In this document: in pieces, positions 7,802-52,171 of the stretch
Layout of the letters: every line of letters starts with the position of its first letter
How positions within the stretch are numbered: the first letter of the stretch is position 1
Assembly: GCA_910574255.1 (NCBI GenBank)
Contig: CAJTAK010000021.1
Location: 1-64,000 of the forward strand
Length of the DNA: 64,000 bases
From: Clostridia bacterium
GTDB lineage: Bacteria > Bacillota > Clostridia > Lachnospirales > Lachnospiraceae
Reading direction: 5' to 3'
Notes under the pieces: model-generated
Database searches by the model: none
What the model saw: the letters and a program-made list of their open reading frames with translations, nothing else
Told to the model about the DNA's origin: nothing
Made by a program: the position numbers and the translations under genes

Positions 7802-8224
7802 ATGGATTTACAAAATGAGAAATGTGTTATGGTCATCGATGAGAACTTGCCCCTTGGCATTATAGCAAATACGGCGGCCATCATGGGCATCACACTGGGA
7901 AAGCAGATGCCGGAGGTGGTGGGTACGGATGTGTATGACAGCACAGGGAACGCTCATCTGGGAATTATCGAATTTCCGGTGCCGATCCTAAAGGGAGATG
8001 CGCATATGCTCAAGAACATTCGTGAAAGGCTGTATGAACCGGAATTTTCGGATTTGACCGTGGTGGACTTTTCGGATCTGGCTCAGGGCTGCAAGACCTA
8101 TGAGGAATTTTCGGAAAAGATGGGGGAGGTTTCGGAAAGTGAGCTGAGTTATTTTGGAGTTGCTATCTGCGGTCCCAAAAAGAAAGTCAACAAATTGACC
8201 GGGAGTATGGCGCTGCTGCGGTGA
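7802..8224 (+). CDS. DUF2000-family protein
   Basis: A 140-residue protein matching DUF2000, a family with a peptidyl-tRNA-hydrolase-like fold and no established activity. Recognisable parts are CVMVIDENLPLGIIANTAA at residues 8-26, PVPILKG at about 59, and the C-terminal ELSYFGVAICGPKKKVNKLTG. It is soluble with no signal. Its ribosome site (AAAAAGGAGG) is supplied by the upstream repeat. Position after an AraC regulator suggests control by it; this is inference. Confidence 0.8.
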   Translation: MDLQNEKCVMVIDENLPLGIIANTAAIMGITLGKQMPEVVGTDVYDSTGNAHLGIIEFPVPILKGDAHMLKNIRERLYEPEFSDLTVVDFSDLAQGCKTYEEFSEKMGEVSESELSYFGVAICGPKKKVNKLTGSMALLR

Positions 8225-8650
8225 TTATGAAAGCAGCAATATGAAAAAGCTGAAAACAGACTGGGAGTATCAATAAGGCTGCAGGCCGGGAATCTGAAAG
8301 AGTGTTTCCAGCCTGCATAGATTGTCGTTTTTTGTCTATAAAAACGGATTGATTTTTTTATATAGACTGCATATTATGATATTGGGGTTAAAAGGTATTT
8401 TGACCCTGGTACCATATTATAAAATGTATCAAATTTCGTATCTATTCTGTACAGGTCCAAGCACTTGCTGCCAGGAGCGTAAGAATATGATTCAAGCTTC
8501 TTTTTATTCACAGGCCGATTCGGTCATAGTTTTCAAAAATTTTAAGTGGCTGTAATACTGCAAACTGTTTGAGGGAGGGTGAGAAGATGGAATGACACAG
8601 TTGTAAAAATGTTGGAATCTGCTATAATTTAAGAAAGGGAACAAATACAT
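8225..8650. other. intergenic region with a terminator, otherwise nothing seen
   Basis: Apart from the terminator at 8278-8333, this stretch has only short unconvincing frames without ribosome sites. A run before the next gene (AAGAAAGGGA at about 8632) serves as its Shine-Dalgarno. Confidence 0.4.
8278..8333 (+). terminator. intrinsic terminator
   Basis: TGCAGGCCGGGAA (8280-8292) pairs with TTTCCAGCCTGCA (8305-8317), and a TTTTTT run follows at 8328-8333. It ends the transcript of the DUF2000 gene. Confidence 0.7.
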
Positions 8651-49278: not shown

Positions 49279-49307
49279 TTGACTTCTTTAAGAGATTGCA
49301 CTATAAT
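49279..49307 (+). promoter_or_regulatory. sigma-A promoter of the methionine transporter operon
   Basis: TTGACT (49279-49284), 17-base spacer, TATAAT (49302-49307): near consensus. Transcription would start near 49314, about 30 bases before the leader peptide. Confidence 0.8.
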
Positions 49308-49346: not shown

Positions 49347-49454
49347 ATGAGAAGGATCAGTAACAATATCGCTGCAATGTGTTCTATGGCCATGTACATG
49401 TACACCATGTGCATGTTTTGTGATGCTGATTTCCAACATGCTTTCTGTCTGTAA
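49347..49454 (+). CDS. methionine-rich leader peptide
   Basis: A 35-residue frame from ATG 49347 to TAA 49452-49454, with AAAAGGAG six bases upstream. Seven of the residues are Met, six of them within residues 11-23 (MCSMAMYMYTMCM), plus four Cys. It lies between the operon promoter and a strong terminator (49499-49529) preceding a methionine transporter. By analogy with trp, his and leu leaders, ribosome stalling at the Met codons when charged tRNA-Met is scarce would favour read-through into the transporter genes. The mechanism is inferred; the features are seen. Confidence 0.75.
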   Translation: MRRISNNIAAMCSMAMYMYTMCMFCDADFQHAFCL

Positions 49455-49455
49455 G

Positions 49456-49529
49456 GAGCGGCCTGATTGGCGGCGGCCGCAGCTCAAGTTTGATTGAGAA
49501 GGGAAGCTTTGTTGGAGGCTTCCCTTTTT
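49456..49529 (+). terminator. attenuator: leader hairpins and intrinsic terminator
   Basis: AAGGGAAGC (49499-49507) pairs with GCTTCCCTT (49518-49526), followed by a T-run to 49529: a strong terminator 75 bases before the transporter gene. Upstream, GAGCGGCC/GGCCGCAGCTC (about 49456-49486) and CTCAA/TTGAG (about 49483-49498) form further stems that overlap each other, as expected for switching structures. An explicit anti-terminator was not proven. Confidence 0.75.
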
Positions 49530-49603: not shown

Positions 49604-50455
49604 ATGAAAAAGCTAGTAAAGACACTTGTAACATCAGCCCTGGTGCTTACCCTTGCAGTATCTCTGACAGCCTGCAAAAAAAGCGGCGGCTTAACAATCG
49701 CAGTACCAAACGACACGACCAACGAGGCACGTGCTCTGCTGCTCTTACAGGAACAGGGATATATCACCTTAAAGGATGGAGCAGGAATCACCGCAACCAT
49801 TCAGGACATTCAGGACAACCCCTATGACATTACGTTCAAAGAGGTAGAAGCAGCCCAGCTTCCCAATGTCCTCCAGGATGTAGACTATGCGGTTATCAAT
49901 TCCAACTATGCAATTGAGGCCGATTTGAATCCCATGACAGACGCACTGGCTATTGAGGGGTCATCCTCCGCATACAGCAATATTCTGGCAGTAAAAGAGG
50001 GAAATGAGTCCTCTGATGCCGTCAAAGCTCTGGTAGCGGCGCTGGAAAGCCAGAAGGTAGCGGATTTCATTACCGAAAAATATGAGGGTGCCGTAGTCAG
50101 CACCGTGGATGCGCCCACAGACGGTTTTGACGCTTCCGTAGATTATGCGGCTTTAGCCGGAACCACCATTTCCGTGGCAGCTTCTCCCACACCTCATGCA
50201 GAGATTCTGAAGGTGGCTCAGGAAATCCTGGCTGAGAAAGATATTACTCTGGACATTATTGAGTATACCGACTATGTACAGCCCAACAACGTGGTAGAGA
50301 GCGGAGAGGTTGACGCAAACTATTTCCAGCATACGCCGTATCTGGATGACTTCAATACTGAGAACGGAACCCATATTGTATCCGCATCTGCCGTTCATGT
50401 AGAGCCCATCGGCCTTTACGGAGGAAAGCAGTCCAGCCTGGATGCTATTAAATAA
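49604..50455 (+). CDS. metQ: methionine-binding lipoprotein (MetQ/NlpA family), circularly permuted
   Basis: A 283-residue lipoprotein with signal peptide and lipobox LTAC (Cys24). The mature protein starts with the segment that is normally C-terminal in MetQ: LTIAVPNDTTNEARALLLLQ (30-49), FKEVEAAQLPNVL, YAVINSNYAIEADLNP, ending ITEKYEGAVV (156-165). A linker (166-186) follows, then the normally N-terminal segment: ISVAASPTPHAEILKVAQEI, EYTDYVQPNNVVESGEVDAN, YFQHTPYLDDFN and VHVEPIGLYGGKQSSLDAIK at the end. The joined ends (LDAIK to LTIAVPND) are continuous in normal MetQ, so nothing is missing. The pocket motifs are all present, so D/L-methionine binding is plausible. Confidence 0.92.
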   Translation: MKKLVKTLVTSALVLTLAVSLTACKKSGGLTIAVPNDTTNEARALLLLQEQGYITLKDGAGITATIQDIQDNPYDITFKEVEAAQLPNVLQDVDYAVINSNYAIEADLNPMTDALAIEGSSSAYSNILAVKEGNESSDAVKALVAALESQKVADFITEKYEGAVVSTVDAPTDGFDASVDYAALAGTTISVAASPTPHAEILKVAQEILAEKDITLDIIEYTDYVQPNNVVESGEVDANYFQHTPYLDDFNTENGTHIVSASAVHVEPIGLYGGKQSSLDAIK

Positions 50456-50466
50456 CCGGAGGTTTT

Positions 50467-51477
50467 ATGATAGAGATAAAGAATCTTTCCAAAGAATTTG
50501 AGACAGCGGATGGAAAAGTGGAAGCTCTGAAAAACGTAAATCTTACCATTGGGGATGGGGATATCTACGGAATCATCGGCATGAGCGGTGCCGGAAAAAG
50601 TACGCTGGTTCGCTGCATCAATATGCTGGAACGTCCCACGGAGGGTACAGTACTCATTGACGGCTGTGACATGGGCGGCCTGTCAAAAGCGGAGCTTCGA
50701 AAAGTGCGCAGGGAAGTAACCATGATTTTTCAGGGCTTTAATCTGCTCATGCAGCGAACCTGCCTGAAAAATATCTGCTTCCCTCTGGAACTGGCGGGAG
50801 CAGATAAGGCAGAGGCGAAAAAACGTGCGCTGGAGCTTTTGGATATGGTAGGCTTACCGGACAAGGCCAATGCTTATCCGGCCCAGCTATCCGGCGGGCA
50901 GCAGCAGCGAATCGCCATTGCCCGGGCGCTGGCAACAGAGCCTAAGGTGCTGCTTTGTGATGAGGCAACCAGCGCCCTTGACCCTAAGACTACTCATTCC
51001 ATTTTGGAGTTAATTCGTGATATTAATGCCCGTCTTGGCATAACGGTGATTATTATTACCCATCAAATGAGCGTTGTGGAGGAGATTTGCAGCCATGTAG
51101 CCATTTTGGACGACGGCGAAGTAGTGGAGGAGGGCGTAGTAAGCACCGTATTTTCCAGTCCAAAATCCGCTGCGGCAAAGCGTCTGGTCTTCCCGGACGG
51201 TGCGGACGAGATTATGACAGAGACTCCGGGAGAGCGGCGGATCCGTGTGGTATTTAGCGGAGCTCTTGCGGCAAAGACACCGTTGATTGCTCAGATGGCT
51301 ATGGAAGAGAAGATTGCGGCAAGCATCTTAGGAGCTTCTACCCGGAGTATTGGGGACAAGGCCTATGGAAATATGCTGCTTGGAATCACAGGCGACGATG
51401 AGATGGTACATAGGGCTATGGAGTATCTTCGGGGCATAGAGGATGTACTGGTAGAGGAGGTGACGGATCATGTTTGA
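50467..51477 (+). CDS. metN: methionine ABC transporter ATPase
   Basis: A 336-residue ATPase with Walker [13 protein letters not shown] (about 38-49), Q-loop MIFQGFNLL, signature [12 protein letters not shown], Walker [14 protein letters not shown] and H-loop ITHQM. The C-terminal part (about 258-336, [20 protein letters not shown]) is the NIL domain that binds methionine and inhibits transport in MetN. It starts 11 bases after metQ and overlaps metI by 8 bases. The domain order is complete. Confidence 0.95.
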
Positions 51478-52171
51478 TAAGCTGTTTTCGCCGGAGGTAA
51501 TCGAAGAAACCCTCTGGATTCTGCAAAATGAAATCCCTCTGGCAGTTTGGGAGACCATCTATGTGACCGTGCTGGCTACGGCCTTTGCCATTATTCTTGG
51601 CCTGCCTTTGGGCGTGCTTTTGGTAGTGGGAGAGAAGGACGGCGTGCTGCCGCTTCCCAAAGGCGTTATGCATGTACTGAATATTTTTATCAATTTACTC
51701 AGGTCTGTGCCTTTCTTGATATTAATGATTATGGTATTTCCCATTACAAGGCTGATTGTGGGAACTGCAGTAGGAACCACGGCTTCCATCGTTCCGCTGG
51801 TAATTGCGGCCTTTCCCTTTGTGGCCCGTCTGGTGGAGAGCAGCCTTCGTGAAGTGAATCCCAATATTATTGAGATGGCTCAGAGTATGGGAGCATCCCC
51901 TTTTCAGATAATTGTAAAGGTGCTGATTCCGGAGAGCGTACCCTCTCTTATGTCTAATTTTACCATAGCTGTCACTACAATTCTGGGCTATTCTGCCATG
52001 AGCGGCATCATTGGCGGGGGCGGCCTTGGAAAGATAGCCATTAACTATGGCTATTATCGCTATAAATACTTGGTAATGCTGATTGCGGTAATTTTGCTGA
52101 TTATTCTGGTACAGATTTTCCAGAGTGCAGGCACTCGGATTTCTGTGAAATCAGATAAGCGTTTGAAATAG
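51470..52171 (+). CDS. metI: methionine ABC transporter permease
   Basis: A 233-residue permease with five membrane helices and the conserved coupling region EMAQSMGASPFQIIVKVLIP (about 140-160), which contacts MetN. It is full length for MetI. It is the last gene of the operon and overlaps metN by 8 bases; GAGGAGGTGACGG precedes the ATG. Confidence 0.95.
   Translation: MFDKLFSPEVIEETLWILQNEIPLAVWETIYVTVLATAFAIILGLPLGVLLVVGEKDGVLPLPKGVMHVLNIFINLLRSVPFLILMIMVFPITRLIVGTAVGTTASIVPLVIAAFPFVARLVESSLREVNPNIIEMAQSMGASPFQIIVKVLIPESVPSLMSNFTIAVTTILGYSAMSGIIGGGGLGKIAINYGYYRYKYLVMLIAVILLIILVQIFQSAGTRISVKSDKRLK

Follow-up and report, generated by a model that had tools for sequence, protein, structure and literature searches.

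Circularly permuted MetQ-type lipoproteins in Clostridia and the origins of their reversed lobe order

Can a MetQ-type substrate-binding lipoprotein be built with its two halves in reversed order, and how would such a receptor arise? The question is raised by a reading frame of 283 codons (49604..50455) in the window, by which we mean the whole stretch of 64,000 nucleotides of clostridial DNA analysed here; this frame and all other features of the window described below lie on the plus strand. A sequence-only reading had taken the product for a circularly permuted MetQ-like lipoprotein, and we call it cp-MetQ, a putative methionine-binding lipoprotein of the MetQ/NlpA type. The family profile PF03180 (MetQ/NlpA, Lipoprotein_9) runs from lobe 1 to lobe 2, whereas in cp-MetQ the halves are reversed: profile positions 97-234 align with residues 29-166, and positions 1-95 follow downstream, at 50168-50452. 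The same reversed two-stretch pattern appears in four further alignments, to 4ib2, 4k3f, 4qhq and 1xs5. The chain opens with a predicted signal peptide (residues 1-23, 49604..49672), recognized from the sequence and from a low-confidence segment (17-27) of the structure model, ahead of the lipobox LTA-Cys24. The codon of Cys24, the predicted site of lipidation, lies at 49673..49675, and judging from the sequence, the modelled strands and the tether lengths of the family six residues lead from it to the first strand (31-35). Next come lobe 2, the canonical C-terminal half (residues 30-166, 49691..50101), a linker from the old C-terminus to the old N-terminus (167-187, 50102..50164), and lobe 1, the canonical N-terminal half (188-283, 50165..50452), which ends in SSLDAIK. 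The earlier reading had described just this arrangement, with a signal peptide and lipobox followed by the IPND half, a linker and the PHAEIL half, and with every pocket motif present exactly once; each motif is indeed found once. Its remark that the old termini are continuous stands in part: they are joined, but by a linker of about 21-23 residues.

Rotation of the sequence near residue 187, which the same reading had proposed as a check, gives the expected result. When residues 187-283 are placed ahead of residues 28-166 or so, with the signal peptide and linker omitted, PF03180 yields a single continuous match over positions 1-233 at 301.6 bits, compared with 281.5 bits for the unrotated protein (gathering cut-off 27 bits), and the match to 4ib2 rises from 250.8 to 270.9 bits. 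The cut-off of TIGR00363 (MetQ/NlpA family lipoprotein), 228.85 bits, is missed by both the unrotated (161.5 bits) and the rotated protein (180.3 bits). An AlphaFold2 model based on a 28-sequence alignment is confident (mean pLDDT 90.4, pTM 0.82) and predicts the two-lobed MetQ fold. In the model, lobe 2 starts with a strand at 31-35 and a helix at 38-50, lobe 1 with a strand at 188-193 and a helix at 195-210, and both continue as alternating strands and helices, lobe 2 with one extra short strand (69-71). A Foldseek search of the PDB with this model ranks MetQ-family structures first to sixth, 4ib2 being at the top, with 84-141 aligned columns; these matches cover about half of the chain or less, one half each, which is how a permutant should appear to an aligner that works sequentially. 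From rank 7 onward the matches are other binding proteins and ATP phosphoribosyltransferases, whose alignments span the full length but are poor (rmsd about 8-10 Å, TM-scores of 0.25-0.43 in most of these rows). Sequence profiles, rotation and model together confirm that the lobe swap is real, and the initial interpretation is both supported and extended.

A check in related species, likewise suggested beforehand, finds the reversed order to be conserved. It is present in all 16 genomes examined of the genus and in 80 of 80 species-level loci, the best 80 of at least 587 confirmed relatives; the species scan took one genome per species and used the permuted protein as query, so that this set favours permuted relatives. 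Such conservation rules out a chance origin of the reversed order. Judging by record titles, these best 80 loci comprise 74 from Clostridia, four from Bacillota without a listed class, one from an Erysipelotrichaceae bacterium and one from Treponema. The carriers are mostly gut bacteria, and those named include Faecalibacterium prausnitzii (including strains ATCC 27768 and APC923/61-1), Oscillibacter and [Eubacterium] infirmum NCTC12940. Altogether the order recurs in 107 distinct proteins of the clade of cp-MetQ, here called type I, and in 95 of them the bridge between the old termini, measured between the profile edges, is 23 residues long. Three loci missed by the motif search (L025, L093 and L094) are permuted on reading, and one apparent case of canonical order (L064) was rejected as an artefact of an upstream reading frame. 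The gene is under purifying selection: dN/dS against five relatives of the genus is 0.023-0.068, with dS above 1, and a sixth pair is saturated.

In samples not chosen by the query, permuted MetQ is a minority form. In a family sample of 120 genomes, 67 have a PF03180 match and four of these show the reversed pattern, two of them with type I (G000 and G130) and two with a second, distant type described below (type II). Among the 341 genomes of a class sample, 16 (window included) match the type I profile at full length with 455-504 bits; one type II protein spans that profile at 148 bits, and the other matches listed are partial, at no more than 195 bits. One genome of this sample (G524), with a single partial match, was left out of the classification. 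A phylum sample of 348 genomes contains three with permuted type I, two of which the class sample also includes. The two halves of one permuted protein should give two PF03180 matches, and this is the exact number in 15 of the class sample's 16 type I genomes, the remaining one (G500) having three. Judged by these counts, a genome with the permuted form usually has no other MetQ, and in the genome of cp-MetQ itself no second PF03180 protein was found.

The predicted function rests on the pocket and on the neighbouring genes. In Neisseria meningitidis MetQ, R156, N213 and N238 hold methionine by its amino and carboxyl groups, and the thioether packs against Y81, F98, H100 and Y103 (PMC6739813). 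Assigned by motif and spacing rather than by superposition, their equivalents in cp-MetQ are R43, N101 and N126 in lobe 2 and Y224, F241, H243 and Y246 in lobe 1. H243 is conserved in 106 of the 107 type I proteins and the other six residues in all of them, and the methionine pocket of cp-MetQ is predicted to be intact. Pfam domains and gene order place cp-metQ at the head of a metQ-metN-metI operon, as for a MetNIQ receptor. The second gene, metN (50467..51477), would encode the ATPase of a methionine ABC transporter with a C-terminal NIL domain (PF00005 and PF09383; the best NCBIfam match, TIGR02314 MetN, scores 367.1 bits, below the cut-off of 499.7), and the third, metI (51470..52171), its permease (PF00528; best NCBIfam match NF008049 MetI, 199.8 bits, below the cut-off of 212). 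Because the MetQ-specific NCBIfam cut-offs are missed even after rotation, the substrate assignment, probably methionine or a close analogue, leans on the pocket residues together with these MetN and MetI partners, whose own NCBIfam matches are below cut-off. The Q-MetN-MetI order is found at 97 of the 107 type I loci, the others having, within the stretch available, Q alone (five) or Q-MetN (four), and in one case Q-MetI-MetN. The gene for the binding protein thus comes first in 97/107 type I operons versus 3/124 canonical loci; the three exceptions share a wider group with type I in the second of the two trees described below, with weak support (90/85). In two loci (L123 and L128), a canonical MetQ stands behind another binding-protein domain in a frame of about 570 residues that is first in a Q-MetN-MetI operon; the additional domain is Pfam SBP_bac_3 (PF00497) in L123 and is assigned by resemblance in L128.

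The family, order and class searches also turned up a distant group of proteins whose halves are reversed in the same way (L229, L230 and L231). An order-level search with these three gave five full-length matches in 236 genomes, one being L229's own, and the type II set analysed consists of seven distinct proteins. Their linkers are 39-46 residues long, an M20 peptidase gene lies near six of the seven loci (Pfam PF01546 in L229), and Thr replaces N101 in all seven, so the substrate of type II may differ. A tree built from 77 rotated sequences includes 20 rows of type I and 7 of type II. The two types, with supports of 100/100 and 100/99 respectively, are separated by a 100/100 branch, and each has canonical proteins on its side. 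Type I lies inside a mixed group of 41 rows (100/96), and the nearest forks of type II within its group have supports of 94/79 to 94/85. Trees of single lobes also need two changes. The main tree represents 77 of 238 distinct entries and a second tree 50, with the bootstrap in both short of fully settled and the canonical loci biased to high scorers. By the tree, there were at least two permutation events, one among ordinary MetQ proteins (type I) and one in a subfamily linked to M20 peptidases (type II). One genome (G164; L246 and G164:C42:64615-65397) appears to hold both permuted types, its type I call being made by score and span only.

How the order may have been reversed is suggested by a fused gene. 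The tandem INTERMEDIATE survey, in which overlapping loci were counted, classified 272 ORFs with matches to the lobes: 136 have the order lobe 1-lobe 2, 134 are permuted, one is a lone lobe 2 cut by the edge of its locus, and one reads 1-2-1-2. In L247 (G287:C171) a frame from 1066 encodes 548 residues, in which two canonical MetQ domains, both complete, stand behind a single signal peptide; no second signal peptide is found between the domains in this frame. Only one assembly is known to contain the fused tandem. In the tree its two domains pair with each other (100/100) on the side of type II, though not in the type II clade itself, and because of this position L247 is the direct ancestor of neither permutant. 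It nevertheless demonstrates that a gene of the kind through which duplication and loss must pass can exist. Near type I, no fused tandem was seen among the 272 ORFs. We infer that the permuted order most likely goes back to a metQ gene that was duplicated in tandem and in frame and then lost its outer lobes, the first lobe 1 and the last lobe 2. At another locus (L168; G492:C1, about 1318056-1320491), three canonical metQ genes lie side by side in tandem.

Several other explanations need to be weighed against this one. The genome might hold two full metQ copies whose inner halves were merged by the assembler, and the window does come from a fragmented assembly (78 contigs), many of its relatives being metagenome-assembled. 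However, the same order in 16/16 genomes of the genus and in the best 80 of at least 587 species records, strain-titled ones included, the linker of 23 residues in 95/107 proteins, and the finding of only one PF03180 protein in the genome reduce the probability of such an artefact practically to nil. A collapsed tandem duplication, which the sequence-only reading had named as the result that would overturn it, likewise fails, because the order recurs in 107 distinct type I proteins, some of them from records of named strains. Alternatively, the protein may be a genuine permutant that has moved from transport to another role, for example that of a surface or signalling protein, as MetQ can moonlight in other bacteria (PMC8416018). 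Against this, the gene leads a metQ-metN-metI operon in 97/107 loci and is usually, by match counts, the only metQ of the genome (15/16), so that we find a change of role extremely improbable.

The remaining two explanations concern the history of the swap. A single ancient permutation, with the canonical order regained in later lineages, would fit the lobe boundary that types I and II share. Yet the two types have a mean identity of only 0.33, and each is closer to canonical proteins: cp-MetQ of the window is 66% identical over the aligned lobes to the nearest canonical locus (L145), and type II proteins reach identities of 0.55 to canonical proteins of the M20-linked MetQ subfamily. A tree forced to unite all 27 permuted rows is worse by 86.8 log-likelihood units (dlnL) and is rejected by the AU test (p-AU 0.00054), and the order would have had to revert repeatedly; one origin is accordingly very unlikely. 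It is also conceivable that the protein is a chimera whose two lobes stem from separate metQ genes fused in reverse order, since halves of two paralogues would yield the same order and some Clostridia have several metQ genes, as in the triple locus above. The lobe-1 and lobe-2 trees, however, each unite type I, unite type II and keep the two apart. These trees are short (87 and 135 columns), support for types I and II is weak for lobe 1 (78/56) and higher for lobe 2 (99/99), and near-identical tandem copies would be indistinguishable from one gene, but on balance a chimera seems unlikely. The reading that we favour is that cp-MetQ is, very probably, a circularly permuted MetQ that works as the lipid-anchored receptor through which a MetN-MetI importer takes up methionine or a close analogue, that it derives from a tandem duplication and that it belongs to a form that has arisen at least twice. 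Its binding, lipidation, transport and docking are what we infer from sequence and model.

The predicted chain, signal peptide-lobe 2-linker-lobe 1, bears on how the receptor would be held at the membrane. A lipobox pattern is present in 102/107 type I and 120/123 canonical proteins, and the tether from the lipobox Cys to the domain has a median length of 8 residues in type I versus 21 in canonical MetQ. The pattern search found no lipobox in five of the 107 type I proteins (L082, L093, L094, L018 and L072), of which L018 begins near a contig edge and matches only from residue 28. L082, L093 and L094 have a signal peptide without the lipobox Cys, and in L093 and L094 the lobe-2 strand follows directly after it. 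As anticipated by the sequence-only reading, the permutation alters the placement of the predicted lipid anchor, which now sits on a shorter tether, immediately ahead of the strand that opens the other lobe. Such a relocation is not trivial, since substrate-binding proteins dock with the pocket beside the translocation path and the lipid of N. meningitidis MetQ is needed for maximal ATPase stimulation (PMC8416018). Both lobes open with a strand and a helix, so with the cut between the lobes the anchored N-terminus would no longer precede the first strand of lobe 1 but its counterpart in lobe 2; judged from the order of secondary structure in the model, the anchor would take the pseudo-symmetric position on the other lobe. 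MetI is a homodimer, and a MetQ-type receptor is pseudo-two-fold. For these reasons the anchor may be able to switch lobes with the ligand cleft and the docking face unchanged. It is tempting to speculate, and we do so tentatively because we hold the idea to be possible but rather doubtful, that MetQ is repeatedly permutable: pseudo-symmetric lobes and a homodimeric MetI would let either lobe carry the anchor, the swap would have been fixed at least twice by way of in-frame tandem fusions, and permuted receptors may dock on MetNI oppositely to canonical MetQ.

The DNA upstream of cp-metQ contains a further element of interest. A sigma-70-like promoter (TTGACT-17-TATAAT, 49279..49307) is a candidate by consensus match only, at 11 of 12 positions, with 6 such sites in the region versus 4.6 expected. 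It is followed by a candidate methionine leader peptide of 35 residues, 7 of them Met (49347..49454), and, between this frame and cp-metQ, by a terminator-like hairpin of 11 pairs with the loop GTTG and a T-run (49500..49529, fold z -3.2). A short frame with at least five internal Met codons is present in 39 of the 105 type I loci with enough upstream DNA and absent from 66, and such a frame arises in 4 of 2100 mononucleotide shuffles. All 39 loci also carry a terminator-like hairpin, which in L035 lies elsewhere than after the frame. Directly upstream of canonical metQ, a Met-rich leader occurs in 5/121 loci, but this control is invalid because canonical metQ usually comes after metN and metI. 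Upstream of metN, 6 of the 20 canonical operons examined have a frame with at least five such Met codons and a hairpin (L274, L275, L287, L288, L291 and L292); three others have a T-box (L278, L281 and L289) and one a SAM riboswitch (L280). We therefore rejected the idea that the leader is tied to the permutation. A pattern made from the Met codons of the leader, which covers this codon spelling only, occurs once in its own genome. Pairing of an antiterminator between leader tail and terminator arm, assessed in 38 of the 39 loci, gave no clear signal (mean -10.5 versus -9.2 kcal/mol in shuffles; p < 0.05 in 3/38). Rfam searches covered 17 type I and 20 canonical loci, the latter being repeated upstream of metN, and Rfam 15 gave no match at gathering scores within the window. 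At one type I locus (L092), a T-box lies just upstream of permuted metQ (L092:3223-3446), its specifier, read from the alignment, being probably AUG, and a SAM riboswitch lies further along (8165-8249).

The upstream element looks like methionine-specific leader-peptide attenuation that is independent of the permutation, and the leader supports methionine as the amino acid sensed. In the accessible text of a 2010 survey, histidine leader peptides in Firmicutes are presented as new (PMC2965389), and in that of a 2005 study of Actinobacteria, no RNA element was seen before the methionine operons of that group (PMC1262725). A search of the open-access literature by title or opening of the abstract found no methionine leader-peptide system, and the Met-rich frame with its hairpin is a candidate for a possibly unrecorded methionine leader-peptide attenuator.

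Compared with known MetQ/NlpA proteins (PF03180; 4ib2 of Ruminococcus gnavus, 4yah, the MetQ of Escherichia coli, and 6cva, that of N. meningitidis), cp-MetQ has the lobes, the predicted ligand residues, the lipoprotein signal and the MetN/MetI partners in common. It differs in its reversed lobes, the bridge of about 23 residues, the new termini at the connection between the lobes, the shorter tether and the metQ-first operon. Natural permutation of an ABC substrate-binding lipoprotein has a precedent in TpMglB-2 (Tp0684), a 'Type Ic / Cluster Bc' glucose-binding lipoprotein which binds its ligand and changes conformation, and whose relatives occur in treponemes and in Gram-positive, often gut, bacteria (PMC4990184). 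That protein, however, belongs to Type I/Cluster B, its permutation reorders the sheet of the N-lobe and adds a fourth hinge, and its permuted part is 13% identical to the E. coli equivalent (PMC4990184), whereas cp-MetQ swaps whole lobes at high identity; as a PF03180 protein with whole lobes exchanged, it falls outside the Type Ic class. Glycine-betaine-binding proteins (2B4L, 1R9L and 1SW1) and molybdate-binding proteins form a circular-permutation family in CPSARST, which extends to relationships among betaine-binding proteins themselves (PMC2395249). That permutation was recognized from structure, at less than 24% sequence identity, and the accessible text of the report mentions neither a tandem intermediate nor a repeated origin (PMC2395249). 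Our search of the open-access literature on permuted MetQ, NlpA or binding proteins found no report of a permuted MetQ. In other words, permuted substrate-binding proteins are already known, while a permuted MetQ, its repeated origin and an extant tandem are new as far as the literature was searched.

The natural permutants that we found in the literature were compared across low sequence identity. In the MetQ family, two permuted clades occur alongside relatives of canonical order and a reading frame with a fused tandem, which opens the duplication-and-loss route to stepwise study. Permuted MetQ is found in well-known gut bacteria (Faecalibacterium, Oscillibacter and Lachnospiraceae), where family models of canonical order under-score the receptor. 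Finally, cp-MetQ makes it testable whether the choice of the lobe that is tied to the membrane matters in a binding protein.
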